Assembly (NCBI GenBank): GCA_963924555.1
Contig: OZ004581.1
Location: 8,595,338 to 8,659,337 of the forward strand
Direction: 5' to 3'
Source of the DNA: Crambe crambe
Taxonomy: Eukaryota > Porifera > Demospongiae > Poecilosclerida > Crambeidae
DNA length: 64,000 nt
The notes under the pieces were generated by a model. The model was not told the origin of the DNA and did not search any database. It saw only the letters and a list, made by a program, of their open reading frames with translations. Shown here one piece after another: positions 5,662 to 64,000 of this stretch; within the stretch, counting starts at the first letter, position 1; the number at the start of each line of letters is the position of its first letter. A program made the translations under genes and the position numbers.

Positions 5662-6888
5662 AAATACTATAAAATTATAAATTCATTTCTTAAAAATATT
5701 AAGCTCTCTTTCCTCAGCCAGATAAACTTAGAAATCCATCCAGTAGAAGCAGAGATACGTAACATTTTACAATTGAAATTGTACAGGAAAATTTTACTTT
5801 CTTTTAATTAAAAAAAACGGCACCTTTCCAAGTAGGTTAAAGGTCATAATGGCTAATAGTACTGCAATCTTTTGCTCGTATCTTAGGATCTACTGGATAG
5901 ATTTTCTTCAAACAAAGTTCATATGGAAGAGTATGAAAGTGAGTATAGAACTAAGGGTAAAATAGGCCATGTAGTCTGGACTACACCAGACTAGTAAAAC
6001 TGTTGTACAATCGTTGTTAATTTGTCCTAGAGTCTGTCCCTGTTCTGAATGTACACAACATTGACAAAGTTAGGAACTTGAGTAGGCCTACCCTCCCCAT
6101 CTAAAACGTGTTTTTGGTTGCTCATTTCAAATTTACTGTATTACGGCTTTGCTATATTTTAGAATTTGTGGCATTAAACCTGCAATTTCTGCTTCCAAGC
6201 TTTGCAGTGGACAGTGATTGATGTTCAAAGTCATGTACAGGATCTGAGAGCTTTGCTGTTATTAAGGAATTCAGACTGCAGCATTAATCAACTATGACTC
6301 CACAGCCAGAACTGATTTATGTTGTTCAGAGATTGATTCAGAATTCAAACCTTTTTCACAACTTTTATTTTACATTAAAATGTGTACTATGGGGGTGAGG
6401 GGGGTTAGGCTATTCACCTGAGGCAGCACAGATTCAAATTTAGCGGGAAAGGGTTGAGGTCGTGAACTTTGACCTATCAGTTATATAAGTTGAATGCCTT
6501 ATCCTTCTTGCGTGCCTTCTTTTCCGCTTGATGCAAGAAGTTATCCAAGGTATCAGAATCAGTTTTTGATGCAGTTTCCAAAAAATATGGTTTCATGACC
6601 TATTCAAGCGTTATATCATAAGAAAATCGAAATTTAAATATGTTTTTGAACATCAAATCTAATTTTAGCACTATATCTAAAAGAAACTGTCACAGTTAGA
6701 TTCTCTAGAATATTAGGATTCTGTTGATATGCTTTTTTTCTGAATTTCTTTGGATCTGGACCTTCGCAGCCAGGTTATATCTTGGTCACTTTTGGTGCCG
6801 TCCTGCAGTATTATCTTTACGTATAAAAAATTGACCCCGCCCACCTTAGCATCCGGTATCACTACTTACAAACCCTGGGAAACTACTG
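5662..6888. other. Non-coding stretch interrupting the transposase
   Basis: AT-rich and without a supported gene. It contains a short palindrome at 5974-5995 (TAGTCTGG...CCAGACTA). It is either an intron or a later insertion; no terminal repeats were found. Confidence 0.5.
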
Positions 6889-7625
6889 TATTGCAAAGAC
6901 CTGGGATTTATCTACGAGAAATACAGAAAGAACTGGAGGATGTGTTGATGATCGAAATAAGCATATCAACTATTTGCAAGTTTTTATGTAAAAGTGGATT
7001 CACTCGTCAGAGGCTCCGTATTGTTGCCACACAGCAGGATACCTTTTTGAGGGAGCAGTATATCATTGATGTATCATTATATTCTCCCATTATGTTCGTA
7101 TTTGTAGATGAAACTGGAGCAGACCATAGGAATAATTTACGGAAATATGGTTACAGTGTGCATGGAAAACCTGCTGTCAATAATACCTTATTATTCAGAG
7201 GAGAAAGGGTATCATGCATGTCAGTCTATGGTGTTTTGGATGTTAAAATGATCAGAACGACTAGTGATGGTGATATATTTTATGATTTCATCCAGACTTG
7301 CCTTATTCCACACCTAATGCCTTTCAATGGAATAAATCCTCATTCTGTAGTCATACTGGACAACTGCTCTATACATCATTGTGCAGAAGTGGTGTCAACA
7401 CTTAGAGATATTGGTGTGTTAGTACATTTTCTTCCACCATATTCACCTGACCTGAATCCCATTGAGCAGGCTTTTTCAAAAGTGAAGTCACAATTAAAAA
7501 CTATTGATCCAGAAGAGGAACTTGATATGGAAACAGCATTATTGGCAAGTTTCGCTGCAATAACTGCTGAAGATTGTAGGGGGTGGATTTCTCACCCTGG
7601 TATATATAGTAACAAAATCATTTAA
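6889..7625 (+). pseudogene. Tc1/mariner-like transposase, DDE catalytic segment
   Basis: Homology starts around QRPGIYLREIQKELEDVL; the upstream part of the open frame from 6750 looks non-homologous. The catalytic triad is visible: D in VFVDETG (near 7108), D in VVILDNCS (near 7360), and E in YSPDLNPIEQ (near 7465). There are 34 residues between the second D and the E (DD34E spacing). It ends at a TAA near 7625. This segment is open and looks well kept. It is separated by about 1.2 kb from the N-terminal HTH at 5419, so the transposase as a whole is broken here unless splicing joins the two. Confidence 0.8.
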
Positions 7626-10458: not shown

Positions 10459-12555
10459 TTAAATACACAACTCCTGATCTGAAATGAAGTGAGACGCTAA
10501 AGGCATCTCACGAACAATCAGTTCACAAGGTTGTGGCCCAGCCCCACCCATTTCTTTCACAGCTAAATACTGTGAATGCGATGAGCTGTAATCTGGGAGA
10601 TCTTCATCACTGAGGGAAACGTCAAATTCATTCCCAGAATACTCTTCACTGGAGCTGGCAGTAGAATCTTCATTGGAGTAGATACTCCCCTCGTTTCCAC
10701 TCATCTCAGGAGGTACTTCGTGGGACGGCTGGTAAGTGGTGCGAGCATGAAGAGAAAATGGCATTGTGATCACAAACTCATCTCCCTCAACATAAACAGC
10801 ATTCGCTTCAGGGAGAAGTGGCATAGCATAGCTGCCATCTTGTATCTCAGTGGCCTCATCATTCGCATCACCAGCTGCTTCAATAATCACTATGGCATTG
10901 TTTGGACCAAGACCAAATAAAAAGCGCAAATATTTGTAAAGACGTGAAAAAAACTGGCCGACAAGGATAGTGATTCTCCATCTGTTCTGATTCAATGGAG
11001 CTTGGAATTCAGATGATGCAGAATCGACTGAGTAATGAGGTGTAACGTCAGAAGTCTGAAAGTGATGAGAGTCAAGTCATTACCAGGTGAGGTGAGGCCT
11101 GAGCATGAAAAGATTTCAAGTACACTGGGAAGGATTCCGAAGTATTGGACAACCAAGAGGATTCAAGTAGCAACTCTTGATCGTTTAACGCACCATTTCC
11201 ACCACCATTCAATCGTGCTAGTTCTCTGTTTAGCCTGTCACCCACTTTTTGGCGAGGAACGGAGAAACATTCGTGGTGAGTGGCTTGCATGCTGGCATAT
11301 CTCTGAAGTAGTTCCTCTACAGGATTGGGAGAGAATTGTGGAAGATAAGACTGTACATTTTGATGGAGAGGGTTGATGGTTTTTATACCGAATATGTCGA
11401 TGAGAGTCAAGGTATAGCGATACAAGCACTTGGAGAGGTCACGTGACGAGGATCGGTTCGATAGTCGGACTTCTTTGCAATTCTGTAGATGATTCTGCAG
11501 GTAGGTAGAAAAATGAATTTATCAAATGGATGTGTAATCTGCTCATATAGTTTCATTGCTGCTGAAACATAGTTTATAGTTCACCCAACAGTGAAAATAA
11601 GGATAAAACGCTTCACAGTGAAATCTCTGAACAAGGGGCCAAATTCAGCCAAACTGAATGGAATGAAATGACCTTTCCTAACCTCCGTAAAGGGCCAACC
11701 TCTCTACAAAGATCAAAAAAAAAAAAAAAAAAAATCTGTCCCAAACATTGAACCTGGCTGTTGTTCAGTATGTGCACATCTGCTCTCAATCCCCTCAGAA
11801 CCTCCCTTTATACCCTCGGAACCTCCCTTTATCCACTCTCAATCCCCTCGGAACCTCCCTTTATCCACTCTCAATCCCCTCGGAACCTCCCTTTATCCAC
11901 TCTCAATCCCCTCGGAACCTCCCTTTATCCACTCTCAATCCCCTCGGAACCTCCCTTTATCCACTCTCAATCCCCTCGGAACCTCCCTTTATCCACTCTC
12001 AATCCCCTCGGAACCTCCCTTTATCCACTCTCAATCCCCTTGGAACCTCCCTTTATCCACTCTCAATCCCCTCGGAACCTCCCTTTATCCACTCTCACTT
12101 TTAACTGTTGTCTTGGAAGAACCAACTCACACAATGGACACACCACTGGTGGAACCATAGCAACAAATCCATTACACCTGGCATAATATGGAAGTTCCAA
12201 TACCTGCAGTAAGATAAGCAGTTGTGTTAACAAGTTAGCTGTACAAGATCTGAACGAGGTCCTAAACATGACGTAATCTATGCTTACATGTATCTGCGAC
12301 CGACGACTGTGATCTATCGTGCCATGCCTTCCAAGTATCATCTCACACTTTAGCTATTTAACTCTAATGACTTACCCTGCTGGCTACATCATCGAGCAGC
12401 CTTTTGTTTCGAGCATTGTAATCAGATAGCTTCTTTTTTTGGCCACGGCTTGTATACGTATTGTTATAAGATCGGCAATGCTGAATTCGAAGTTGCTTAA
12501 TAACTGACATGGTTGGAAAGCTAGGTAACTCATAGAAACTATCGGATATACTCAT
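10459..12555 (-). CDS. Four-exon gene for a 430-aa protein with a C2HC zinc finger
   Basis: Reconstructed exons are 12376-12555 (ATG start, 60 codons), 12099-12203 (35), 11084-11494 (137) and 10459-11055 (198 plus stop). All introns are phase 0 with GT-AG borders: GTAAGTC, GTGAGAG and GTAATG donors; CTGCAG, CTGCAG and TTTCAG acceptors. Joining exons 2 and 3 completes CPLCELVLPRQQLKNHLQNC, a C-x2-C...H-x3-C finger, which strongly supports the model. The N-terminus is basic (RGQKKK). Exon 3 is polar with VEELLQRYASM. Exon 4 has a hydrophobic stretch (ITILVGQFFSRLYKYLRFLFGLG) and a long acidic Ser-rich tail. The family was not recognised; function unknown. Intron 2 holds a minisatellite, and a SLU7-like exon lies 70 bp upstream. 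Confidence 0.7.
11790..12100. repeat. 32-bp minisatellite, about 9 copies, in intron 2
   Basis: The unit is CTCAATCCCCTCGGAACCTC plus CCTTTATCCACT. Copies are almost identical, with one CTTGG variant near 12039. The period of 32 is not a multiple of 3, so the long open frames here are artefacts. The array abuts the exon 2 donor of the zinc-finger gene (12094-12098), which appears to be built from unit sequence. Confidence 0.95.
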
Positions 12556-16204: not shown

Positions 16205-16400
16205 CTCATAGTGAAGGTACAATAGGAGACAGCATGTAAGTAACAATGCAGAGAGTGAGTATGTTCATGTATCCTGAAGGAATGAAATTAAGCATCAAAA
16301 TACAACAGTGAAAGAATAGACCACATGTAAGTAACAATGCAGAAAGTGAGTCGGTTCAGAATAACTTACCTACTGAAATAAAGGATCAAAATATGACAGT
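16205..16400 (-). repeat. Two orphan, degenerate 115-bp array units (copy A)
   Basis: These carry the same motifs as the big arrays. The first unit has lost its donor (CATGTATCCTGAAGG). The second keeps acceptor and donor, but its triplet (16370-16372) reads TAG on the minus strand, the only stop triplet seen in any unit. Confidence 0.85.
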
Positions 16401-16428
16401 GAAGGTGATTCTTATGGACCAATGCAAT

Positions 16429-22364: not shown

Positions 22365-24345
22365 ATCAAAATATGACAGTGAAGGTACATCACGGCAAGA
22401 GAATAGACAGCATGTAAGTAAAAATGCAGAGAGCAAGTCAGTTCAGGATAACTTACCAACTGAATAAAATTAAGCATCAAAACCCGACAGTGAAGGTACA
22501 ACAGGGTAAGAGAATAGACAGCATGTAAGTAACAATGCAGAGAGTGAGTCTGTTCTGAATAACTTACCTCCTGAAGGAATGAAAATAAGCATTAAAATAT
22601 GACAGTGAAGGTACGACAGGGTCAGAGAATAGACAGCATGTAAGTAACAATGCAGAGAGTGAGTACATTGAGAATAACTTACTTTCTGAAAGAATAAAAT
22701 TAAGAATCGAAATACGACAATGAAGGTACGACAGGGTAAGAGAATAGACAGCATGTAAGTAACAATGAAGAGAGTGAGTACATTCAAAATAACTTACCTC
22801 CTGAAGGAATAAAATTAAGCATCGAAATACGATGGCGAAGGTACAACAGGTAAGAGAATAGACAGCATGTAAGTAACAATGCAGAAAGTGAGTCAGTTCT
22901 GAATAACTTACTATCTGAAGGAATGAAATTAAGCAAATATGACAGTGAAGGTACGACAGGGTAAGAGAATAGACAGCATGTAAGTAACAATGCAGAGAGT
23001 GAGTCAGTTCAGGATAACTTACCGGCTAAAGGAATGAAATTAAGCATCAAAATATAACAGTGAAGATATAACAGTGAAGATAAGATAGGGTAAGAGAATA
23101 GACAGCATGTAAGTAACAATGCAGAAAGTGAGTCAGTTCAGGATAACTTACCGGCTAAAGGAATGAAATTAAGCATCAAAATATAACAATGAAGATACGA
23201 CAGATTAAGAGAATAGACAGCATGTAAGTAACAATGCAGAGAGTGAGTCAGTTCAGGATAACTTACCGGCTAAAGGAATGAAATTAAGCATCAAAATATA
23301 ACAGTGAAGATATGACAGGTAAGAGAATAGACAGCATGTAAGTAACAATGCAGAGAGTGAGTATGTTCAGGATAACTTACCGGCTAAAGGAATGAAATTA
23401 AGCATCAAAATATAACAGTGAAGATATGACAGGGTAAGAGAATAGACAGCATGTAAGTAACAATGCAGAGAGTGAGTCAGTTCAGAATAACTTACTGGCT
23501 GAAGGAATGAAATTAAGCATCAAAATACAACAGTGAAGGTAAGACAGGGTAAGAGAATAGACAGCATGTAAGTAACAAAGCAGAGAGTGAGTACGTTCAG
23601 AATAACTTACCTCCTGAAGGAATGAAATTAAGCATCAAAATACAACAATGAAGGTAAGACAGGGTAAGAGAATAGACAGCATATAAGTAACAATGCAGAG
23701 AGTGAGTACATTCAGAATAACTTACATCCTGAAGGAATGAAATAAGCATCAAAATACAACAGTTAAGGTAAGACAGGGTAAGAGAATAGACAGCATATAA
23801 GTAACAATGCAGAGAGTGAGTACGTTCAGAATAACTTACCTCCTGAAGGAATGAAATTAAGCATCAAAATACGACAGTGAAGGTAAGACAGGGTAAGAGA
23901 ATAGACAGCATGTAAGTAATAATGCAGAGAATGAGTACATTCAGAATAACTTACCTCCTGAAAAAATAAAATTAAGCATCAAAATACGACAATGAAGGTA
24001 CAACAGGGTAAGAGAATAGACAGCATGTAATTAACAATGCAGAGAGTGAGAAACTTACCGACTGAACAAATGAAATCAAGCATCAAAATACGACAGTGAA
24101 GGTAAGACAGGGTAGGAGAATAGACAGCATGTATATAACAATGCAGAGAGTGAGTACATTCAGTATAACTTACCGACTGAAGGAATGAAATTAAGCATCA
24201 AAATACAACAGTGAAGGTAAGACAGGTAAGAAAATAGACAGCATGTAAGTAACAATGCAGAGAGTGAGTCAGTTCTGAATAACTTACTATCTGAAGGAAT
24301 GAAATTAAGCAAATATAACAGTGAAGGTACGACAGGGTAAGAGAA
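22365..24345 (-). repeat. Array 1 of about 115-bp intron-microexon units (17 readable units)
   Basis: Same-orientation tandem units. On the minus strand each has CTTAAT, TTTCATTCCTTCAG (or CTTTAG), three variable bases, then GTAAGTTAT. Reading the triplets from high to low coordinate gives ISSEEDEPPPPPIEKEL with no stop. The last unit runs directly into the phase-0 coiled-coil exon of gene A at 22353. Unit sequence otherwise differs mainly by scattered substitutions. Confidence 0.95.
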
Positions 24346-25010
24346 TATAAGAAGGTCAAGGTGAACGTGAATAGACTTTAATTTTAAGTGGCCTAAGTGC
24401 ATATGAGGCACATGCAGCCACCAATTTCCTTATAATGACATTGTTACTATAATAATGATAGCCACTGTAAAAGTGCTGCCAGCCTGCCCATGCTATAGCT
24501 AGCTGCCAGTTGCCCACCATTTTACTTCATAAGTAGACAGAATCAACAAGCTGTGCAAGCATTTGCACACTCCATCAGCTTAACTAGCTACTCCAACTTC
24601 ATAGATTAGTGGAATGAATAAGTTTGCCATCATGAACTACTTGACCTCAAAGACAGTTATTATATTCATGCACAGCTACTAAAGTCTAGCTATTTGCAGT
24701 CACTGGGTCCCTTAAATGATCATTCACTGTTTGCTCTAACTTCAACCACACCAGCTGCAGCTGCATGGTTTAAAAATTGAGAGAAAATTTATAGCAGTGC
24801 ATGATCAAGGGAGTAGGTACTGCTAATTGAACTTCATTATTTTAAATATTGTACAGGAACAGAAGGGATCAGCTGAGTCCTGTTCAGTTATTTTCACTAG
24901 CTAGTACAGACAGTTTCTATATGCAGGCTTGTGAGTACACAGTTGCTAGCTAGCACCAACTTATGTAGCTAGCTGCCTTTTCATGTGAATGTACTTACGG
25001 TTTAGCTCTG
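24346..25010. other. Intron-like non-coding stretch
   Basis: Lies between the 5' end of array 1 and the candidate first exon of gene A. AT-rich with AGCT runs; nothing else is recognised. Confidence 0.5.
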
Positions 25011-25017
25011 CTAGAAG

Positions 25018-25062
25018 TAGATAACTGCTCTTCTTCTAATATTGATCATAATCATATCATGT
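25018..25062 (-). CDS. Candidate first exon of gene A
   Basis: On the minus strand TCTACTTCTAGCAGAGCTAA is followed by a GTAAGTACATTCACATG donor region. It matches the end of gene C's exon 1 (ATSSRAEPYF then GTGAGTGCATTCACATG). Here the phase at the donor differs (AAA CC) and no clean in-frame ATG is visible, so this copy may be damaged or start elsewhere. Confidence 0.4.
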
Positions 25063-25469
25063 AGTCTCGCGTGGCCAGACCCTTTACCAACTGCAGCACG
25101 GATGTGTATTACATCATCCGCACGCAGTACGATTGGTTAGACACACTATGATAGCAAAAACAACTCCACTGGTCACTGGCTAGGCACTGTGATTCAGGGC
25201 CATGCCGTAAGTTTGAATATCTGATGCTGGAGAAAGCAGGCTCCTGTCACTCTTAGACACACCACCCTTCTTTCCTCCAAGATGGCAACAAGACTGCACT
25301 GTATATGCAATGGGTCTATATCGCAAAATGAATTCTGGACAGCATAGCCAATAGGCATAAGTAAGAGTAGATTATTCCTATGATTATGTAAATAATATTA
25401 TTCACAATAGCAATAGTTACTTATGACTACATCAAGGAACATTGATTCAGCAAGAAGCTTTTGTGAAAT

Positions 25470-28400
25470 TAATCAATTTCTTTTAATAAATGAACTTGCA
25501 TACCAATCACTGACAGTTTCATTTATTTCTTCTGCAAGTGTTTTCAATCCGATATCATTTAAGACTTTGACAAGACTCTTCCACGAAACTTCCACTCCTT
25601 TTCCTTCCAACCAGTTGTTGAGTATTCTTGTGGTGATGTCCACTGGAACCCCACGAAGTTCTTTTTGAATGGCCTTCACATGACCACCTGTTTCATCCTT
25701 CAGCAGTGATATCCCAAAACTGGAATAATCTGCTCCAATCTTGTTTGGAATATTGATGTTACGCTTGAGGCCAGGGAAGTTGAGTAAACAGGGCATAGTG
25801 GGCTTCAAACCTGGAAGAGTAAGTGACAACCAAAACTGTTAATGATGAGTGAAGGTGTATTATGCATGAGTTATCACATTCATTAAAGTAATATTGCCCC
25901 TGAAGGAACTGCAATCAGTGCTTCACATATGTAGTACCCTAAGGGGACATGCTTCAAATATTTAGTTTGTATAGTTTGTACCCACCCTTCAAAGATTTGA
26001 AGATTGATTTCTTTCGCATTTATTAACGTTCCAATTAAAACTCCAGAGACTAACATTACCCAACCTAAACTCAAAGGTAAATAAGACTTTCACAACAAAG
26101 TCATTAACTGATCATACCTCACTCGATGATAGGAACAAGTTTTAGTGTATTGATAAGGTTGGAGTTATCGGGGCCGGGGTCAATGTTGTTTTTTGTTTCG
26201 GCTTTAGCAGAGACTAATAGAGTTCCTTTTGATTTAAATACAAAAATGACCACAAAAATGATAATGATAGCAATCAGTCTCCAAATTAGCACTGTATGGT
26301 AAGGGAGTGCCCCTTCAAGGCCATGCCAACTCCTCTATCCTAGATACACCAGCTATCGGACTCGGAAGTAATAGCGTAATAGCTAGTGGTAAAGAGTTGG
26401 CTATGCCAGACTAGAGAGTACGAGTATGATATGTTGGTTATTTAGGAAGAAATATTTTTCAAAACTATGAATCAGGCCATACACGTTGATATGTGAGATA
26501 GAACATTCTGAATTATAATACAGAGCTGGAATCGTGCCCTTTTTTCCAGAAAGCCTAAGGCTTCGTTCTAATTGCTACTGGCAGTGTAGTGGATGTAAAA
26601 GATACACATATACACTCAACTGAGTACTGTAACCCTTGTGCATGTGATGACAGCTTAAGTTTCCAGGAAAGCTTTAGTCGTGACTTACCTGAATTTTGAC
26701 GTTGTTTCATATCAATAGCTATTCAATATCAAAGGTATAGGAATAGGGGACGGGAGGGCCATAAATTAATCTGATGAAGAGTCTAACACAAAAAAGAACA
26801 GATGACTCATTTTTGTCACATGACCCCCATCCCCTATGAATATGGAACTGTTGTACATTGTTAGGTAATAAATCTTTTGCATATGTCCATACCAATTCCA
26901 TAATTTTTTATCATTAGTACTAGTTGTACCCAATAGCTAAATGTAGTTATGTGCAAAATGCTACCTTGCTTCGAATTCTCAATGGAAATGACCTCAAGTT
27001 TGCTAGCAGCAATCTACCAAGAAAATAAATAAATATATAATTAATAAATATTAAAATACGACAGTGACAGGGTAAGAGAATAGACAGCATGTAAGTAACA
27101 ATGTAAAGAGTGAGTAAGTTCAGAATAACTTAACCGCTGAAGGAATGAAATTAATCATCAAAAATACGACAGTGAAGGTACGACAGGGTAAGAGAATAGA
27201 CAGCATGTAAGTAACAATGTAAAGAGGCAGAATAACTTACCCGCTGAAGGAATGAAATTAATCATCAAAATACGACAGTGAAGGTACGACAGGGTAAGAG
27301 AAGAGACAGCATGTAAGTAACAATGCAGAGAGTGAGTACGTTCAGAATAACTTACCTCCTGAAGGAATAAAATTAGGTATCAAAATACGACAGTGAAGGT
27401 ACGAATGGGTAAGAGAATAGACAGCATGTAAGTAATAATGTAAAGAGTGAGTACGTTCAGAATAACTTACCCGCTGAAGGAATGAAATTAAGCATCAAAA
27501 TACAACAGTGAAGGTACGGCAGGGTAAGAGAATAGACAGCATGTAAGTAACAATGCAGAGAGTGAGTACATTCAGAATAACTTACCTCCTAAAGGAATGA
27601 AATTAAGCATCAAAATACGACAGTGAAGGTAAGACAGGGTAAGAGAATAGACAGCATGTAAGTAACAATGCAGAGAGTGAGTCAGTTCAGAATAACTTAC
27701 CGGCTAAAAGAATGAAATTAAGCATCAAAATATAACAGTGAAGATACGACAGGGTAAGAGAATAGACAGCATGTAAGTAATAATGCAGAGAGTGAGTCAG
27801 TTTAGGATAACTTACCGGCTAAAGGGATGAAATTAAGCATCAAAATATAACAGTGAAGATATGACAGGGTAAGAGAATAGACAGCATGTAAGTAACAATG
27901 CAGAGAGTGAGTCTGTACGGAATAACTTACTGGCTAAAGGAATGAAATTAAGCATCAAAATATAACAGTGAAGATACGACAGGGTAAGAGAATAGACAGC
28001 ATGTAAGTAACAATGCAGAGAGTGAGTCAGTTCAGAGTAACTTACCGACTGAAGGTATATCAAAATACAACAGTGAAGGTAGGACAGGGTAAGAGAATAA
28101 ACAGCATGTAAGTAACAAGGTAAGAGAATAGACAGCATGTAAGTAACAATGCAGAGAGTGAGTCAGTTCAGAATAACTTACCGGCTAAAGGAATGAAATT
28201 AAGCATCAAAATATAACAGTGAAGATACGACAGGGTAAGAGAATAGACAGCATGTAAGTAATAATGCAGAGAGTGAGTCAGTTTAGGATAACTTACCGGC
28301 TAAAGGGATGAAATTAAGCATCAAAATATAACAGTGAAGATATGACAGGGTAAGAGAATAGACAGCATGTAAGTAACAATGCAGAGAGTGAGTCTGTACG

Positions 28401-31400
28401 GAATAACTTACTCGCTAAAGGAATGAAATTAAGCATCAAAATATAACAGTGAAGATACGACAGGGTAAGAGAATAGACAGCATGTAAGTAACAATGCAGA
28501 GAGTGAGTCAGTTCAGAGTAACTTACCGACTGAAGGTATATCAAAATACAACAGTGAAGGTAGGACAGGGTAAGAGAATAGACAGCATGTAAGTAACAAG
28601 GTAAGAGAATAGACAGCATGTAAGTAACAATGCAGAGAGTGAGTCAGTTCAGAATAACTTACCGGCTAAAGGAATGAAATTAAGCATCAAAATATAACAG
28701 TGAAGATACGACAGGGTAAGAGAATAGACAGCATGTAAGTAATAATGCAGAGAGTGAGTCAGTTTAGGATAACTTACCGGCTAAAGGGATGAAATTAAGC
28801 ATCAAAATATAACAGTGAAGATATGACAGGGTAAGAAAATAGACAGCATGTAAGTAACAATGCAGAGAGTGAGTCTGTACGGAATAACTTACTGGCTAAA
28901 GGAATAAAATTAGGCATCAAAATACGACAGTGAAGGTACGACAGGGTAAGAGAATAAGTAACAATGCAGAGAGTGGGTCAGTTCAGAATAACTTACTCGC
29001 TGAAAGAATGAAATTAAGCATCAAAATATAACAGTGAAGGTACAACAGGGTAAGAGAATGGACAGCATGTAAGTAATAATGCAGAGAGTGAGTCAGTTCA
29101 GAATAACTTACCGACTGAAGGCATTAAAATACGACAGTAAAGGTACGACAGGATAAGAGAATAGACAGCATGTAAGTAACAATGCAGAGAGTGAGTACGT
29201 TCAGAATAACTTACCAACTGAAAGAATGAAATTAAGCATGAGATTTAATACGACAGTGAAGGTACAACAGGGCAAGAGAATGGATAGCATGTAAGTAACG
29301 ATGCAGAGAGTGGATCAGTTCAGAATAACTTACAAGCTGAAAGAATGAAATTAAGCATCAAAATACGATAGTGAAGGTAAGAGAGGGAGAATAGACAGCA
29401 TGAAAGTAACAATGCAGAGAGTGATTTGATTCAGAATAACTTACCCACTGAAGGAATGAAATTAAGCATCAAAATATGACAGTGAAAGTACAGCAGGGTA
29501 AGAGAATAGACAGCATGTAAGTAACAATCCAGAGAGTGAGTACGTTCAGAATAACTTACTCGCTGAAGGAATGAAATTAAGCATCAAAATATGACAGTGA
29601 AGGTAAGACAGGGTAAGAGAATAGACAGCATGTAAGTAACAATGCAGAGAGTGGATCAGTTCAGAATAACTTACATGCTGAAAGAATGAAATTAGGCATC
29701 AAAATACGACAGTGAAGGTACGACAGGGTAAGAGAATAGACAGCATGTAAGTAACAATGCAGAGAGTGGATCAGTTCAGAATAACTTACATGCTGAAGGA
29801 ATGAAATCAAGCATCCAAATATGACAGTGAAGGTATGACAGGGCAAGAGAATAGACAGCATGTAAGTAACAATGCAGAGAGTGAGTACGTTCAGAATAAC
29901 TTACCTCCTGAAGGAATAAAATTAGGCATCAAAATACAACAGTGAAGGTACGGCAGGGTAAGAAAATAGACAGCATGTAAGTAACAATGCAGAGAGTGAG
30001 TACGTTCAGAATAACTTACCGACTGAAGGAATAAAATTAGGTCAAAATACGACAGTGAAGGTACGACAGGGTAAGAGAATAGACAGCATGAAAGTAACAA
30101 TGCAGAAAGTGGATCAGTTCAAAATAACTTACTTGCTGAAAGAATGAAATTAGGCATCAAAATATGACAATGAAGGTACGACAGGGTAAAAGAATAGACA
30201 GCATGTAAGTAACAATGCAGAGAGTGGATCAGTTCAGAATAACTTACAGGCTGAAGGAATGAAATCAAGCATCAAAATATGACAGTGAAGGTATGACAGG
30301 GCAAGAGAATAAACAGCATGTAAGTAACAATGCAGAGAGTGAGTACGTTCAGAATAACTTACCTCCTGAAGGAATAAAATTAGGCATCAAAATACGACAG
30401 TGAAGGTACGGCAGGGTAAGAAAATAGACAGCATGTAAGTAACAATGCAGAGAGTGAGTACGTTCAGAATAACTTACCGACTGAAGGAATGAAATTAGGT
30501 CAAAATACGACAGTGAAGGTACGACAGGGTAAGAGAATAGACAGCATGAAAGTAACAATGCAGAGAGTGGATCAGTTCAAAATAACTTACTCGCTGAAAG
30601 AATGAAATTAAGCATCAAGATATGACAGTGAAGGTAAGAGAGGGTAAGCGAATAGACAGCATGTAAGTAACATTGCAGAGAATGATTCAATTCAGAATAA
30701 CTTACCCACTGAAGGAATGAAATTAAGCATCAAAATATGACAGTGAAGGTACGGCAGGGTAAGAGAATAGACAGCATGTAAGTAACAATGCAGAGAGTGA
30801 TAACTTACCAACTGAAGGAAATATTAAGCAATGACAGTGAAAGTACAACAGGGTAAGAGAATAGACTGTATGTAAGTAACGATGCAGAGAGTGAGATAGT
30901 TTAGAATAACTTACACTCTGAAGGAATGAAATTAAGCATTAAAATACGACAGTGAAGGTACGGCAGTGTAAGAGAATAGACAGCATGAAAGTGATATTGC
31001 AGAGAGTGAGTCAGTTCAGAATAACTTACCAGCTGAAAGAATGAAAATAAGTATCAAAATACGATAGTGAAGGTACAACAGGGTAAGAGAATAGACAGCA
31101 TGTAACAATGCATAGAGTGAGTCAATTCAGGATAACTTACCGTCTGAAGGAATGAGATTAAGAATTAAAATATGACAGTGAAGGTACGACAGGATAAGAG
31201 AATAAACAGCATGAAAGTAACATTGTAGAGAGTGAGTCAGTTCTGAATAACTTACTTTCTGAAAAAAATTAAGCATCAAAATACAACAGTGAAGGTATGA
31301 CAGGGTAAGAGAATAGACAGCATGTAAGTAACAATGTAGAGAGTGAGTCAGTTCAGAATAACTTACTCGCTGAAGGAATGAAATTAAGCATCAAAATACG

Positions 31401-33651
31401 ACAGTGAAGGTAAGAGAGGGTAAGAGAATAGACAGCATGTAAGTAACAATGCAGAGAGTGAGTCAGTTCAGAATAACTTACATCCTGAAGGAATGTATCA
31501 AAATACAACAATGAAGGTATGACAGGGTAAGTGAATAGACAGCATGTAAGTAACAATGCAGAGAGTGAGTCAGTTCAGAATAACTTACCATCTGAAGGAA
31601 TGAAATTAAGAATCAAAATATGACAGTGAAGGTACGGCAGGATAAGAAAATAAACAGCATGTAAGTAACATTGCAGAGAGTGAGTCAGTTAAGAATAACT
31701 TACCTCCTGAAGGAATGAAATTAGGCATCAAAATACGACAGTTAAGGTACGGCAGGGTAAGAAAATAGACAGCATGTAAGTAACAATGCAGAGAGTGAGT
31801 ATGTTCAGAATAACTTACCGACTGAAGGAATGAAATTAGGTCAAAATACGACAGTGAAGGTACGACAAAGTAAGAGAATAGACAGCATGTAAGTAATAAT
31901 GCAGAGAGTGAGAACTTCAGAATAACTTACCAACTAAAGGAATGGAATCAAGCATCGAAATACGACAGTGAAAGTACGACAGGGTAAGAGAATAGACAGC
32001 ATGTAAGTAACAATGCAGAGAGTGAGTATGTTCAGAATAACTTACCGGCTGAAGAAAATATTAAGAATCAAAATACGACAGTGAAGGTAAGAGAGGGTAA
32101 GAGAATAGACAGCATGTAAGTAACAATGCAGAGAGTGAGTACGTTCAGAATAACTTACTGGCTGAAGGAAATATTAAGCATCAAGATACGACAGTGAAGG
32201 TATGGCAGGATAAGAGAATAGACAGCATGTAAGTAACAATGCAGAGAGTGAGTACGTTCAGAATAACTTACCGGCTGAAGGAAATGTTAAGAATCGAAAT
32301 ACGACAGTGAAGGTAAGAGAGGGTGAGAGAATACACAGCATGTAAGTAACAATGCAGAGAGTGAGTACGTTCAGAATAACTTACTGGCTGAAGGAAATAT
32401 TAAGCATCAAAATACGACAGTGAAGGTACGGCAGGGTGAGAGAACAGACAGCATGTAAGTAACGATACAGAGAGTGAATACGTTCAGAATAACTTACCTC
32501 CTGAAGGAATTAAGCATCAAAATACAACAGTGAAGGTAAGAAAAGATAAGAGAATAGACAGCATGTAAGTAACAATGCAGACGTTCAGAATAACTTACAA
32601 TCTGAAAGAATGAAATTAAGCATCAAAATACGACAGTAAAGGTAAGAAAAGATAAGAGAATAGACAGCATGTAAGTAACAATGCAAAGAGTGAGTCAGTT
32701 CAGAATAACTTACCCACTAAAAGAATGATATTAAGCATCAAAATATGACAATGATGGTACGGCAGTGTAAGAGAATAGACAGCATTTAAGTAACAATGCA
32801 GAGAGTGAGTCAGTTCAGAATAACTTACCGGCTGAAAGATTAAGCATCAAAATACGACAGTGAAGGTATGACAGAGTAAGAGAAAAGACAGTATGTAAGT
32901 AAAAATGCAGAGAGTGAGTATAACTTACCAACTGAAGGAATAAAATTAAGCATCAAAATACGACAGTAACGGTACAACAGAGTAAGAGAATAGACAGCAT
33001 GTAAGTAATAGTTATGAAGTAAGTTGTCAAGAATAACTCACATCCTGAAGGATCTAAATATGTCAATGAAGGTATGACAGGGTAAGATAATGAGAAGTGA
33101 TAAAACAATATGCTAATAAAGTATGAGTAATGACTTACCAGGAGAAGGGGTAATAAGTTCCAACATCAAATTGAGTGCATATGGTGTGAAAGAACATGAT
33201 GTCAAATATAATGTCAGTCTTGAATGACTCACCTCCTGAAAGAAAATATTGATACACATACTAACTAAAGGTCGTGATCATAACATAATTCAGCACTTTC
33301 TAATTAATAGACATTCCAGACACAATCTTAAAACCTCCTTCCTTTGTGTTGGTAAAGGGTTGACAAGTGAGAATTGGTCCCACCCGGTACCCGTGGGCCA
33401 CATATATACACTGCAGTACAGCACAATCTGTACTTCAGGTGAGGAAGGAATGAGCTTCCAAGTCATTACCAGTGGTGGGTTGCATTGGTACACCCTCTAT
33501 AATTAATACTCCACAACTAAATGAGCTGGTGTCACACCCTAGCCCCTAGCTACCTTTTTCATGTGAATGCACTCACAAAATATGGTTCAGCTCTGCTAGA
33601 AGTAGCCTTCTTCTCTGTCTCTTCATTCTCTTCACCTTTTTTATCACTCAT
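25470..33651 (-). CDS. Gene C: microexon array - coiled coil - Death domain protein
   Basis: Exon 1 is 33577-33651 (ATG; MSDKKGEENEETEKK ... SSRAEPYF, 25 codons, ends in phase 0 at GTGAGT). Array 2 follows. Then come 26965-27013 (IAASKLEVISIENSKQ, 0 to 1), 26689-26718 (IDMKQRQNS, 1 to 1), a possible 26123-26213 (KAETKNNIDPGPDNS), and a Death exon from about 25817 down to a stop near 25473 (YSSFGISLLKDETGGHVKAI ... VSWKSLVKVLNDIGLKTLA). The phase between the last two does not match, so an exon or border is wrong there. A Death fragment at 25980-26020 (AKEINLQIFEGWVQ) is leftover sequence. No ZU5 is present. Probably an adaptor acting through Death-Death contacts. Confidence 0.6.
25473..25817 (-). 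CDS. Death domain exon of gene C
   Basis: Acceptor TTCCAG at about 25818. The helical pattern IGADYSSFGISLL, GGHVKAIQKEL, ILNNWLEGKG, SWKSLVKVLNDIGLKTLAEEI is the family Death domain. It is clearly diverged from the 17.8-kb and 57-kb copies. Confidence 0.75.
   Translation of the reverse strand, partial: LPGLKPTMPCLLNFPGLKRNINIPNKIGADYSSFGISLLKDETGGHVKAIQKELRGVPVDITTRILNNWLEGKGVEVSWKSLVKVLNDIGLKTLAEEINETVSDWYASSFIKRN
27045..33240 (-). repeat. Array 2 of about 115-bp intron-microexon units (53 readable units)
   Basis: The largest array. Triplets between acceptor and donor are GAG, CCG, TCG, CGA, TTG, TGG, CCA, CAT, CTT, CGG, GAT, ATG, ACG, AAA, AGT, CTG, CCT, CAA and ATT on the minus strand; none is a stop. 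Excerpts are RWLLSRPPPSR and IEPPPPLSEMDRK. The unit nearest the coiled-coil exon (27125) has a mutated donor (TTAAGT), and the one at about 33125 lacks an AG acceptor. Higher-order duplication is evident: 27658-28138 repeats at 28139-28619, and about 29890-30100 repeats at about 30348-30558. Confidence 0.95.
33245..33570. other. Non-coding (intron 1 of gene C)
   Basis: Between the array edge and exon 1. It contains CCCACCCGGTACCCGTGGG but no gene. Confidence 0.5.
33577..33651 (-). CDS. Exon 1 of gene C
   Basis: ATG at 33649-33651, then 25 codons rich in Glu and Lys, ending SSRAEPYF exactly at GTGAGT in phase 0. An upstream GTAAGAAAT donor at about 33677 suggests a 5' untranslated exon. Diverged relatives lie near 25018 and 38155. 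Confidence 0.65.
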
Positions 33652-41374: not shown

Positions 41375-41575
41375 AGTGAAGGTACAATAAGAGACAGCAT
41401 GTAAGTAACAATGCAGAGAGTGAGTATGTTCATGTATCCTGAAAGAATGAAATTAAGCATCAAAATACAACAGTGAAAGAATAGACCACATGTAAGTAAC
41501 AATGCAGAAAGTGAGTCGGTTCAGAATAACTTACCTACTGAAATAAAGGATCAAAATATGACAGTGAAGGTGATT
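41375..41575 (-). repeat. Two orphan 115-bp units (copy B)
   Basis: Same pair as in copy A. The triplet at 41535-41537 again reads TAG on the minus strand. Confidence 0.85.
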
Positions 41576-51945: not shown

Positions 51946-51954
51946 AGCTACAAA

Positions 51955-52108
51955 CACCAAGGTTATGAACACCAGAGTTACAAACACCAAGGTTATGAAC
52001 ACCAGAGTTACAAACACCAAGGTTATGAACACCAGAGTTACAAACACCAAGGTTATGAACACCAGAGTTACAAACACCAAGGTTATGAACACCAGAGTTA
52101 CAAACTGA
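51955..52108. repeat. 30-bp minisatellite, about 5 copies
   Basis: The unit is CAAACACCAAGGTTATGAAC plus ACCAGAGTTA. Because 30 is a multiple of 3, all frames stay open, so the apparent ORFs are not evidence of a gene. Confidence 0.95.
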
Positions 52109-58981: not shown

Positions 58982-61471
58982 AAAAATGATGAACCTTGTG
59001 GAGTGTGTGTTTCTTTTTCCTTATAACTTCCATCTTTGTGGTACATTAGTCTAGATGGGGGTGGGAGTGTTAAATAATGAGGAAAATTATTATTTACACA
59101 ACTTACTTTATTTGCATGTCTTTTATTCCTATGCAACTCAAGTGGTGGAGGAGGTAAGGTCTGGCTGGAATATTCATCATCTCCATCTCCTTCTGCCATT
59201 TTTCTAGCAGAATCTTGGCATCATTTTTTATGTATGGAAGGTGTTCTGACATCTCCAAGGCTTCTGCCAGTTCCTTCACCTTCTCACACTTCAGAACCTC
59301 CGTGGCAATAACTTCAAGTTCAGAGGAAGAGATGTTTGCATTAGGTGAATGGTCCTGCATGAAGAGCAACAGTCATTATGAAATGAGATAAAGAGGTATG
59401 ACTTACTTGTCGAATATTGAACCAAAATCTCTGGAAATCATTTAACTTTGTTTGATTCCCTTTCTGACAAATGAGGGATGGGTTGGAAGTGGTGGGAGAT
59501 GATGGAAGGATCACAAAATGATCGTTTTGTGGGCAGCCTTCACATTTCAGTGCAAAGTCAATATTGATTCCGGCAAGCCACTTTTTGATATCGGAAGATG
59601 AGTCTTGAAGTATTTCAAGAATATCACGACATGAACTTATGAAGAAGGGACGGTTGTACTCTCTTGAATTGATACGTTGTACATCAACTCTCACGCTCAA
59701 CATTTCTTCTGTAATGAAAAGTCTGTCCAGTTGCTGTCCAGGAGATCCAAACAAAAATTGGATTTGATTTCGATATATTTTTTCATTGACAGGTAAATAA
59801 CATTTCGGGTGCTTTGACATGACTGCTGCCAGTTGAGTGAAGAAGCCTGGAGGCAAGTAGTTGGTGTTGAAAACAAGATGCAATGGAATTGCAGAGTTGA
59901 TGGCAGTGCTAATTGATTGTGGATCATCAACTTTCAATAAATGAGGTAGCATGGATGGAACAAAATACTTCATACCAGGACCCTTATGCTTTTCAATATT
60001 GATTGTAGCAATAATCAAGAAATGTTCCAACAGATCCACGATTTGTTGAGGTTGCATCTCTTTTTGAGCACTCAATACTTCCTGGCATAATGATTCTACC
60101 AATACTCCATCCTCGCGCAGCAACTTCCAGAGACGGCTGTTTCTATATTCTTCTCGGCCTTCCAGTGCCAACAAACAGGCTATTTGCTTGATGAGCCATT
60201 GAGGGTCAGCAATGACACAAGACTTCAAGCTGGGGATGTCAGAGTAGTGAAAGAATACGGCAAGATCGTGATAGAATGCAAGAATGCTAGTAAGAGTATC
60301 TTCAGGGATTGAACATGCTCTGCACAATTCCTTCACTTCCTCTAAAGGAACTACTGGCTTCTTTTGAGATCTGGCATATCTCTGGAACACTTTCCTGAAC
60401 AGCAACCAAGTGATTGGAGTACGAATAGCTAAGTTTTTTGTTGCAAACTTATTCACAATTGTACGAATGAGCTTAAAAGTGTTATCTTCTTCAAGTTCTC
60501 CTTTACCAGCTGTTGTGTTATCAACTATTGCTCCATCCAGAACAATGTCAGAAAAAGCTTTATCTGTAAATTCTGTAGAAAGCTTTTCAAGAATCTCATC
60601 CTTCCTTTCCTTGACAGAAAAATCATCACCGTGTGAACCAACTGGTAGAATGCGGGGATATTTGGGGAATGCTTCATCTTTATCATTTTCTTTATCGAAA
60701 AAGAGCCTCTTATTCAAGAGAGTAGCATGAATGGTGGATATCCACTGCACCATCAGGTCCAGTGTGGATATATCTTCTAGATGCTCAGTGGCTCTTCCTT
60801 TCAAATACGTGAGTGACCGACACTGATCATGGAGATCAAGTCTGGCATCAAACATTAAGAGAAACAATGTCCTCGCTGTTAGGAATGCAGGAAGAATTTT
60901 AAGGAAGACTGGCTGGCCTCCACAATCCCACACATTCAGATAAACTTCCTCTTCAATAAATAGGTCATCAGTTGTTATAACAGAAAAAATCTCTTTCAAA
61001 ATCCCCTCAATTAATGGGTTGTCAAACTTGGGGACAATTTTACTAGATTGACTTTTGCCACTGCTCACATCACTTCCACTGCTTGCATCACTTTCTGTGG
61101 CAGAATTGGAATCTTTGTGGTCAAGAATAGTTTGTATCAACTGAGCCATTGCCTTGATTTCATCAGCATCAATTATTTTAGTCCAGAACTTTCCTTCCTG
61201 GCTGCAGGCACAGTAACTCTCAGTGGGGCGGAGGGAGAACGTGTCAGCCACCTGGGTGCTGTAGGCTTCACAGGGAAGGGGCAGATTCATCAAGCCATTG
61301 AGTAGACTGCTCTTGCCCACACCTCCAGGGCCAACGATCATCACACGAGCATATGCAACCTTCGTTTCACCATGCCCCAGGGCATTCAAGTAATCCACTG
61401 AAAATCAAACATACAAAATAAACAATATCTATCAAAATAAAAATATTACCTTCAGTCCTTGAGGCTCGAGT
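55880..61471 (-). CDS. Gene I: Roc-COR - Death-like - coiled coil - Death - Death protein
   Basis: Exons 5' to 3', phases consistent: 61450-61471 (TRASRTE, 0 to 1), 59407-61397 (Roc-COR, 1 to 0), 59107-59354 (Death-like, 0 to 2), 59050 downward (YHKDGSYKE, cut into by a GA-repeat insertion), 58160-58275 (linker LNQLQSAPQLKPGCSP, 1 to 0), 58066-58111 (0 to 1), 57024-57341 (Death, 1 to 1), 55880-56263 (second Death, 1 to 1, donor GTAAAC; the next exon not found). Upstream it is continuous with array 3. The architecture is that of ROCO proteins with Death domains: a GTP-switched scaffold, probably for innate or cell-death signalling. The coiled-coil exon and the 3' end are uncertain. Confidence 0.7.
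56300..57020. other. Intron of gene I
   Basis: 56940-57000 has a short GGTGTCACACTG repeat. Otherwise featureless. Confidence 0.5.
57024..57341 (-). CDS. Death domain 1 of gene I
   Basis: SCSSPTMMDIICFPLQDSK leads into YLQFGILLLEDQTGARISAL, VFYEWLQGEG and VSWETLVSVLEDIGLNQLAK. Same subtype as 17774, 43063 and 39256. The donor after VIWK keeps phase 1 into the next Death exon. Confidence 0.8.
57345..58060. other. Intron of gene I
   Basis: Paralogous to 39570-40420. No exon. Confidence 0.5.
58927..58978. repeat. (GA)n microsatellite inside the coiled-coil exon region
   Basis: On the minus strand it extends the coiled-coil frame as LSLSLS, an unlikely protein segment. Intact paralogues read on as a coiled coil here, so it is an insertion. 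Confidence 0.85.
59107..59354 (-). CDS. Death-like helical exon of gene I
   Basis: Reads SELEVIATEVLKCEKVKELA then ILLEKWQKEMEMMN and YLLHHLSCIGI. The six-helix spacing with L-L-x-x-W fits the Death superfamily. It is joined to Roc-COR by a 52-nt intron (59355-59406). Relatives: 46998-47245 (intact), 16060-16185 and 41210-41340 (dead). Confidence 0.7.
59407..61397 (-). CDS. Roc-COR exon of gene I
   Basis: A 1991-nt exon. The acceptor GATTTTCAG at 61398 and donor GTAAGTC at 59406 fix its limits. Roc: P-loop GPGGVGKSSL near residue 23, switch II WDCGGQ near 158 (DxxGQ form), and a G4-like LPVGSHGDD near 250 in place of the usual NKxD. COR starts around RTPITWLLFRKVFQ and includes IADPQWLIKQIACLL. 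The insert after the P-loop (SDASSGSDVSSGKSQSS) is a low-complexity linker. No stop or shift, so probably functional. Confidence 0.88.
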
Positions 61472-61519: not shown

Positions 61520-64000
61520 CAAAAGACACACTCACCACCTGAAAATATGAACACCACAACAGTGAAAGTATTATGAAATTCAGTGAGCAAACACAGGGAG
61601 AAAGCTGACTCTCAGGTCATGACTCAATGTACGTGTTATGATTAACAACGCATTAATTTTGGTAGACAACATGTAAGTAACAATGCAGAGAGTGAGTCAG
61701 TTCAGAATAACTTACTCGCTGAAGGAATGAAATTAAGCATCAAAATACGACAGTGAAGGAACAGCAGGGTAAGAGAATAGACAGCATGTAAGTAACAATG
61801 CAGAGAGTGAGTCAGTTCAGAATAACTTACTCGCTGAAGGAATGAAATTAAGCATCAAAATACGACAGTGAAGGAACAGCAGGGTAAGAGAATAGACAGC
61901 ATGTAAGTAACAATGCAGAGAGTGAGTCAGTTCAGAATAACTTACTCGCTGAAGGAATGAAATTAAGCATCAAAATACGACAGTGAAGGTATAGCATGGT
62001 AAGAGAATAGACAGCATGTAAGTAACAATGCAGAGAGTGAGTCAGTTCAGAGTAACTTACATACTGAAGGAATGAAATTAAGCATCAAAAGACGACAGTG
62101 AAGGTACGGCAGGGTAAGAGAATAGACAGCATGTAAGTAACCATGCAGAAAGTGAGTCAGTTCAGAATAACTTACCGACTGAAGGAATGAAATTAAGCAT
62201 CAAAATACAACAGTGAAGGTACGGCAGGGTAAGAGAATAGACAGCATGTAAGTAACAATGTAGAGAGTGAGTACGTTCAGAATAACTTACCTCCTGAAGG
62301 AATGAAATTAAGCATCAAAATACGACAGTGAAGGTAAGACAGGATAAGAGAATAGACAGCATAGACAGCATGTAAGTAACAATGCAGAGAGTGAGTACGT
62401 TCAGAATAACTTACCGACTGAAGGAATGAAATTAAGAATCAAAATACGATGACAGGGTAAAAGAATAGACAGCATGTAAGTAACAATGCAGAGAGTGAGT
62501 ACGTTCAGAATAACTTACCAACTGAAGGAATGAAATTAAGCATCAAAATACAACGACAGGGTAAGAGAATAAACAGCATATAAGTAACAATGCAGAGAGT
62601 GAGTACATTCAGAATAACTTACCAACTGAAGGAATGAAATTAAGCATCAAAATACAACAGTGAAGGTACAGCAGGGTAAGAGAATAGACAGCATGTAAGT
62701 AACAATGCAGAGAGTGAGTACGTTCAGAATAACTTACCCCCTGAAGGAATGAAATTAAGCATCAATATACGACGACAGGGTAAGAGAATAGACAGCATGT
62801 AAGTAACAATGCAGAGAGTGAGTACATTCAGAATAACTTACCGACTGAAGGAATGAAATTAAGCATCAAAATACAACAGTGAAGGTACGGCAGGGTAAGA
62901 GAATAGACAGCATGTAAGTAACAATGCAGAAAGTGAGTACGTTCAGAATAACTTACCTCCTGAAGGAATGAAATTAAGCATCAAAATACGACAGTGAAGG
63001 TACGGCAGGGTAAGAGAATAGACAGCATGTAAGTAACAATGCAGAGAGTGAGTCAGTTCAGAATAACTTACTCGCTGAAGGAATGAAATTAAGCATCAAA
63101 ATACGACGACAGGGTAAGAGAATAGACAGCATGTAAGTAACAATGCAGAGAGTGAGTACATTCAGAATAACTTACCAACTCAAGGAATGAAATTAAGCAT
63201 CAAAATATAACAGCGAAGGTACGGCAGGGTAAGAGAATAGACAGCATGTAAGTAACAATGCAGAGAGTGAGTACGTTCAGAATAACTTACCAACTGAAGG
63301 AATGAAATTAAGCATCAAAATACGATAATGAAGGTACGGCAGGGTAAGAGAATAGACAGCATGTAAGTAACAATGCAGAGAGTGAGTCAGTTCAGAATAA
63401 CTTACTCGCTGAAGGAATGAAATTAAGTATCAAAATACGACGACAGGATAAGAGAATAGGCAGCATGTAAGTAACAATGCAGAGAGTGAGTACGTTCAGA
63501 ATAACTTACCTCCTGAAGGAATGAAATTAAGCATCAAAATACGACAGTGAAAGTAAGACAGGGTAAGAGAATAGACAGCATGTAAGTAACAATGCAGAGA
63601 GTGAGTACGTTCAGAATAACTTACCTCCTGAAGGAATGAAATTAAGCATCAAAATACAACAGTGAAGGTACGGCAGGGTAAGAGAATAGACAGCATGTAA
63701 GTAACAATGCAGAGAGTGAGTACGTTCAGAATAACTTACCAACTGAAGGAATGAAATTAAGCATCAAAATACAACAGTGAAGGTACGGCAGGGTAAGAGA
63801 ATAGACAGCATGTAAGTAACAATGCAGAGAGTGAGTGGAGTCAGTTCAGAATAACTTACTCGCTGAAGGAATGAAATTAAGCATCAAAATACGACGACAG
63901 GGTAAGAGAATAGACAGCATGTAAGTAACAATGCAGAGAGTGAGTACGTTCAGAATAACTTACCTTCTGAAGGAATGAAATTAAGCATCAAAATACGACG
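61520..64000 (-). repeat. Array 3 of 115-bp intron-microexon units (22 readable units, runs off the right edge)
   Basis: The exact period of 115 bp is seen at 61731, 61846 and 61961. The unit nearest the gene (61535) has triplet GTG and donor GTGAGT, then comes the phase-0 exon TRASRTE of gene I. Triplets read from the right edge begin KRLEERLLRESG and end YRRR before V; none is a stop. Some units lack about 10 bp (AATACGACGACAGGG). Confidence 0.95.

Follow-up and report, generated by a model that had tools for sequence, protein, structure and literature searches.

Tandem intron-like repeats with predicted single-codon microexons in the sponge Crambe crambe

The question raised here is what to make of a tandem repeat in which every unit resembles a complete intron and successive introns are separated by exactly three bases. 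The repeat lies in a window of 64,000 nucleotides (nt), the whole stretch of DNA that was analysed, which covers positions 8,595,338 to 8,659,337 of contig OZ004581.1 (C1 below) in the 143-Mb genome of the demosponge Crambe crambe; its units run along the minus strand, which is also the strand of the host genes. A first-pass annotation of window positions 22365-33240 had described units of roughly 115 base pairs (bp), each with a splice acceptor, three bases and a donor, and had proposed that each would add one codon to a protein if spliced. Our results favor this interpretation, and we place at roughly 0.9 the probability that every repeat consists of one codon and a spliceosomal intron of about 112 nt, with the codons joined serially between phase-0 exons. 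Inclusion of the codons in messenger RNA (mRNA) is predicted from features of the sequence: the strict 3-nt exon length, the avoidance of stops in one frame, the phase of the flanking exons, and a codon choice fitted to splice sites together suggest that the triplets are spliced and translated often enough for selection to act on them.

Unit anatomy and reading frame

Units were sought with the pattern TTTCATTCCTTCAG-NNN-GTAAGTTAT, allowing up to five mismatches, or up to seven where AG and GT are intact, and 71 are present on the minus strand of 22365-33240, so the described unit structure stands. The span comprises two arrays separated by about 2.8 kb of other DNA that includes a Death-like exon. 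Its units contain 20 different triplets, of which 47 of 71 (66%) end in G, as the earlier estimate of two thirds had it; the statement that more than 20 triplet values occur holds for the whole window (24 values at 93 minus-strand sites with up to five mismatches) but not for the span itself. With the five-mismatch limit the plus strand of the window contains no unit. The regularity of about 115 bp is in part confirmed, in that this is the period of many window units, but the introns vary, and in the arrays that were read 354 of 685 are 112 nt long while the remaining 331 have other lengths, spread over all modulo-3 length classes.

The units extend well beyond the window. Genome-wide there are 3094 exact CTTCAG-NNN-GTAAGTTAT units, as opposed to two matches when the exact 18-base pattern is read backward, and a 26-base unit pattern with up to three mismatches is matched 3785 times (325 on the plus and 3460 on the minus strand) and not at all when reversed. 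A chance origin of the units is excluded by these counts. Viral contigs contain no match to the unit pattern. Arrays were read in about 324 kb of this one genome, a part of the clusters consisting of the window and C1:8140001-8360000, 8659001-8679000 and 8818001-8838000; these regions hold 12 arrays of at least ten units, with 16 to 177 consecutive predicted microexons each, and six single units lying outside such arrays were excluded from the array set. As expected of spliceosomal microexons, the triplets lie between an intron that ends in AG and one that begins with GT, with AG in 691 of 697 units and GT in 696, counts from a search that was somewhat laxer for units keeping both. The columns of the CTTAAT motif, previously noted as branch-like, are conserved at 86-98%, but the rest of the intron is conserved at least as well, and the motif is thus no special evidence for a branch site.

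The three-base spacing is strict. Within 264 kb, a donor follows within 40 nt at 635 acceptors, in every case after exactly 3 nt, and 15 further acceptor-like sites have no donor within that distance. In the genome as a whole, exact flanks lie 0-2 nt apart at two places and 4-16 nt apart at 21, none of them on C1 or on C11, a second contig that carries the unit. A version on C9 with a 9-nt gap was considered as a microexon and rejected, since the sequence there resembles the final part of ordinary repeated exons (FN3/EGF-like on visual inspection).

Stop triplets are almost absent. Among the 3094 exact units TAA and TAG do not occur and TGA occurs once, compared with 131 AAA, 15 ATG, and 125 glycine or alanine codons. 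For the 12 arrays, codon counts use 959 of 969 units, the ten without intact AG/GT having been dropped, and 2 of 959 are stops in frame 0, whereas the two shifted frames have 19 of 947 and 36 of 947 (55 of 1894; P=4e-8, for counts that are not independent events, the array copies being related). The mean of the one-step sense neighbor codons predicts 94 stops where two are seen, with TAA at zero against 23 and TGA at two against 15. Outside the arrays, three of the six single units have a stop triplet, and it is TAG in both of those in the window, as would be expected where nothing is translated. The phase of the predicted microexons agrees with that of their neighbors: wherever these were read, phase 0 is found both at the end of exon 1 and at the start of the exon that follows the array, and frame 0 is the only stop-poor frame. 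In the Roc-COR genes this phase-0 exon runs on into the Roc-COR frame.

Codon choice was compared with a reference of 7028 codons from 11 open reading frames (ORFs) of at least 400 amino acids in the same DNA. GAG outnumbers GAA by 154:4 in the arrays (117:306 in the reference), AAA outnumbers AAG by 83:22 (279:218), and CAA outnumbers CAG by 33:5 (167:123); third-base C is found in 7 of 957 array codons but in 1264 of 7028 reference codons, and most array codons end in G. Splice donors are preferentially preceded by G, and AAG or CAG placed directly after CAG offers a second acceptor, which GAG hardly does. At the level of sequence most of the codon pattern is explained by these two splice rules (G before the donor, and no NAG second acceptor), although arginine runs partly contrary to the G-ending rule, with 38 CGA and 22 CGG. 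A pattern that follows splice-site rules is hard to explain if the triplets are never exons. The predicted residues of the 12 arrays are mainly E (16.5%), L (15.7%), S (13.2%), K (10.9%), P (10.0%) and R (7.3%), with recurring peptide motifs in the strings such as SELPKEEELSEL and LERLPREQHSLL, and this composition suggests a flexible or coiled linker.

Serial splicing, its alternatives and the turnover of units

Joined in order, the codons of an array that was read would encode a stretch of 16 to 177 residues in which Glu, Leu, Ser, Lys, Pro and Arg abound; this stretch would often link a short acidic N-terminus to a Roc-COR GTPase. A 3-nt exon is hardly able to hold both splice complexes at once, and we therefore envisage that the short introns are recognized as units by intron definition and removed successively, each removal adding a codon to the growing exon and leaving the next donor ready. 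The consensus intron is predicted to fold no more stably than its shuffles (z +1.2), and pairing of the donor is no higher than in shuffles. We also note that hexamers complementary to the donor number 5 in the consensus intron against 0.54 in shuffles, for five hexamers chosen post hoc, and that of 671 introns 552 contain ACTTAC, 530 CTTACC, and 511 ACTCAC.

The likeness of the introns may be kept by exchange between units, with codons gained, lost and moved as intron-plus-codon cassettes through unequal recombination and changed more slowly by point substitution. The first-pass annotation had contrasted hypervariable triplets with near-constant introns, and at the DNA level this contrast is borne out: among 542 pairs of units with identical aligned intron columns, the triplet differs in 42%. 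The triplet is linked to the haplotype of the intron that comes after it, GAG being accompanied by the GT haplotype in 61 of 69 cases when the five commonest haplotypes are counted, and codon and intron thus seem to move jointly as a cassette. Two recent paralogous arrays of 137 and 131 units were compared by alignment of units, since nucleotide alignment goes out of register by whole units in two regions and its substitution totals were not used. Their introns differ at 25 of 12946 sites (0.19%) and their aligned codons at 3 of 118, one of these in a badly aligned unit, whereas 19 and 13 units are without a partner, singly or in blocks of at least six. With so many partnerless whole units and so few codon substitutions, array length and order appear to change mostly by whole codons.

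Several observations weigh against serial splicing of single codons, in addition to the relatedness of array copies noted above. To our knowledge there is no precedent for the splicing of more than 170 introns of the same kind in a row. No first exon was found within 700 nt upstream of the longest array (C1:8163492), six of the 697 units are without AG, and the decayed array at C1:8234213 seems to include one unit of 4 nt that has another acceptor. That array and the one at C1:8832953 each have one in-frame TGA between intact splice sites; both precede a transmembrane-like exon, and one is clearly decayed. Moreover, stop triplets alter splice signals, as TAG would make a second acceptor and TAA and TGA a shifted donor, and stop avoidance could therefore be partly driven by splicing, although this would still need the triplets to be spliced.

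Taken to its limit, this last point gives a model in which the triplets are restricted by splicing alone and not by translation, and the third-base and NAG classes are clearly splice-shaped and stop triplets do disturb the signals. We consider the model quite improbable, because TAA and TGA fall short of the neighbor expectation while CGA, CAA and AAA are common, because exon length preserves frame and peptide motifs are repeated, and because it concedes that the triplets get spliced. Very unlikely, too, is that the arrays are a satellite within one long intron that is always removed whole, with the splice-like sequences as relics of the satellite's origin. Whole removal would keep the frame, both flanking exons being in phase 0 where read, and the introns are alike in satellite style; triplets that were never used, however, would not keep a gap of three across 3094 units, avoid stops in one frame, or have splice-fitted codons. 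We give hardly any credence to the proposal that the units are recursive-splicing ratchet points that aid removal of a long intron, leaving the three bases absent from mRNA. The units resemble such points in that a strong donor comes very soon after the acceptor (as in the available part of PMC8605326), but at ratchet points acceptor and donor adjoin directly and no exon is left, an arrangement found once with exact flanks in the genome, on C14. Three bases between them would remain in the mRNA after stepwise splicing, and neither the stop avoidance nor the phase would be explained.

A different alternative is compatible with serial splicing, namely that units are included but often skipped, so that one gene yields numerous proteins, all in frame and distinguished by single residues, as happens on a smaller scale in flatworm micro-exon genes. 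Any donor joined to any later acceptor stays in frame, the rare TGA units and AG-less units would be tolerable if skippable, and multiple-of-three micro-exons are skipped in flatworms according to the available part of PMC7653826. Free skipping would, however, tolerate more stops than 1 in 3094, and we regard frequent skipping as possible but somewhat doubtful. Speculative, and less likely than not, is a codon-cassette system in which germ-line recombination between the near-identical introns inserts, deletes and shuffles single residues in a Roco/Death family with the frame left intact, and free somatic skipping of units adds an in-frame cloud of variants that might serve immune or self recognition. 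If true, this would be a means of diversifying proteins by single residues, unlike V(D)J joining, Dscam splicing or whole-exon gene conversion.

Host genes in the window and beyond

The predicted components of the array-bearing genes in the window are as follows.

33577..33651, minus strand: first coding exon of the array-2 gene (MSDKKGEENEETEKKATSSRAEPYF), 25 codons, phase-0 end before GTGAGT
33233..33235, minus strand: leader microexon GAG (Glu) of array 2, with the leader common to 40 places, all on C1
33042..33044, minus strand: second microexon GAT (Asp) of array 2
27134..33235, minus strand: array 2, 54 predicted single-codon microexons reading EDLPWIEPPPPLSEMDRKTLSLWRSEPQSEHHRWLLSRPPPSRPPSPPPERERR; donor of the final unit broken (TTAAGT)
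26965..27013, minus strand: ordinary exon after array 2, IAASKLEVISIENSKQ plus 1 nt (49 nt), phase-0 start
25473..25838, minus strand: Death-like stop-to-stop frame (Pfam Death 19.1 bits, below the 22.6 cut-off)
22457..24290, minus strand: array 1, 17 predicted microexons reading ISSEEDEPPPPPIEKEL
61716..63966, minus strand: array 3, 21 of the 41 predicted microexons of a Roc-COR gene; the array runs past the window end
61536..61538, minus strand: candidate extra 3-nt microexon GTG with a different intron sequence (TTTTCAG-GTG-GTGAGT)
61450..61471, minus strand: exon TRASRTE plus 1 nt (22 nt), phase-0 start and phase-1 end
59341..61397, minus strand: Roc (PF08477) and COR-A (PF16095) exon, given to the stop of its frame, which continues from TRASRTE

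The array-2 gene probably has its 3' end in the Death-like frame at 25473..25838. Between microexons E and D of array 2 there is an apparently dead unit (~33130-33160) with its donor kept, its acceptor AG lost, and CTG at the triplet position, and similar sequence is seen in other arrays with a first intron of 180-201 nt. Upstream of array 1 lies an exon-1-like sequence (24999-25025) with no start codon found in its frame, and the array-1 gene may thus not be intact. The whole of array 3 extends over C1:8661989-8657055 with 41 predicted microexons reading EDLSSSSSDSEDEEELLLESKRLEERLLRESGLLSESYRRR. Its host belongs to the Roco family, with Roc followed by COR and both domains scoring above cut-off within 59341-61404 (PF08477 at 37.6 bits and PF16095 at 58.7 bits), and the predicted product runs from EPYF through EDLSSSSSDSEDEEELLLESKRLEERLLRESGLLSESYRRR and V to TRASRTEVDYLNALG.

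Across the 12 arrays, a first exon like MSDKKGEENEETEKKATSSRAEPYF precedes seven, window array 2 included, and a decayed first exon precedes C1:8234213; nine start with microexons E then D. The longest array, at C1:8163492, has 177 units (178 before overlapping matches were merged), with a codon reading that begins EDRREEKLEKSKWELWLPKELSELPKEEMSELL... The exon after the array is of a short IRASRTE, TRASRTE or IAASKLEV type, or transmembrane-like in two arrays, and a Roc-COR exon directly follows five. The two arrays that precede transmembrane-like exons, C1:8832953-8819168 and C1:8234213-8229165, have a high proportion of W, C, Q or L codons. Two pairs of the leader microexons found on C1 by the genome search are 1.5 kb apart and one pair lies within a single array, so the 40 places should represent about 38 genes.

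COR-A scores above cut-off in 149 of 150 scored among 339 candidates, and 28 of the 150 are in C1:8.1-9.4 Mb and 19 on C11. C11 also carries the unit, near COR-A genes and on their strand. Of the 125 exact units with Gly or Ala triplets in the genome, 100 were listed, 41 of these on C11, as are 9 of 11 exact CTTCAG-GTT units. At C11:5833094-5877785 and 7130931-7219600 the microexon unit occurs near Roc-COR genes with Gly, Ala and Val triplets.

Elsewhere in the window, a ZU5 plus Death-domain gene region is repeated on the minus strand at about 16-20.7 kb and 41-46 kb, the ORFs of the two copies being alike. Near copies of this region, at 16233-16403 and 41398-41568 in the window and at C1:8668442, are isolated degenerate 91-bp versions of the unit with stop triplets. 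A DDE_3 transposase-like ORF is present at 6744-7625 on the plus strand, and tandem repeats with copies matching 99-100% are at 11813-12097 (32-bp) and 51949-52105 (30-bp).

Relation to known systems

Introners, or introner-like elements, are near-identical introns present many times in a genome and dispersed within it; here the units are in tandem, each has its own codon, and in the regions read they lie next to a single gene family. The variable exons of Dscam are tandem copies that are much larger and mutually exclusive. The arrays likewise consist of tandem exon copies with potential for diversity, but their exons have one codon and are apparently joined serially. In searches of the open-access literature, a scope that leaves out most subscription papers, we recognized no description of single-codon exon arrays. 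The nearest known kind is the micro-exon genes (MEGs) of flatworms.

If transcripts confirm the exons, the arrays would be a limiting case of the split gene, with an intron after every codon more than 100 times in a row. They would also offer a test of the spliceosome on serial 3-nt exons, of its error rate when all errors are in frame, and of whether introns serve as handles for the exchange of single codons. Very short exons are easily missed in annotation, as stated in the available part of PMC8831610, and thousands of such exons would be concerned here.

That exons of this size can be spliced, as is needed here, is indicated by isolated examples, which include 3-nt exons of Drosophila hth, troponin T and NCAM (PMC7392893) and a 1-nt exon of Arabidopsis APC11 (PMC4674806). 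Unlike the microexons described here, these sit singly in ordinary genes, and the available parts of the two sources mention no arrays.

The closest kind is the MEGs of Schistosoma mansoni and tapeworms (PMC7653826, PMC10526429, both in their available parts), which likewise have consecutive tiny exons that are mostly multiples of three and can be skipped in frame, with exons down to one codon mentioned. The micro-exons of S. mansoni are mostly 15 bp, with 10-20 per gene and introns of 0.1 to about 5 kb (PMC10526429). As given in the accessible text of PMC7653826, a MEG has micro-exons below 70 nt and divisible by three, at least seven exons of which at least half are micro-exons, and runs of at least four. 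The predicted exons are below 70 nt and divisible by three throughout (635 of 635, and 3094 exact units), and 16-177 of them are consecutive in the 12 arrays, so the host genes would be micro-exon genes by that definition if transcripts confirm the exons. They differ from the flatworm MEGs in that all predicted exons of an array are one codon long, with up to 177 in a row, and are separated by near-identical tandem introns of about 112 nt; in the longest cases some signaling proteins appear to be encoded in part by more than 100 successive one-codon exons, beyond any gene that we found described.

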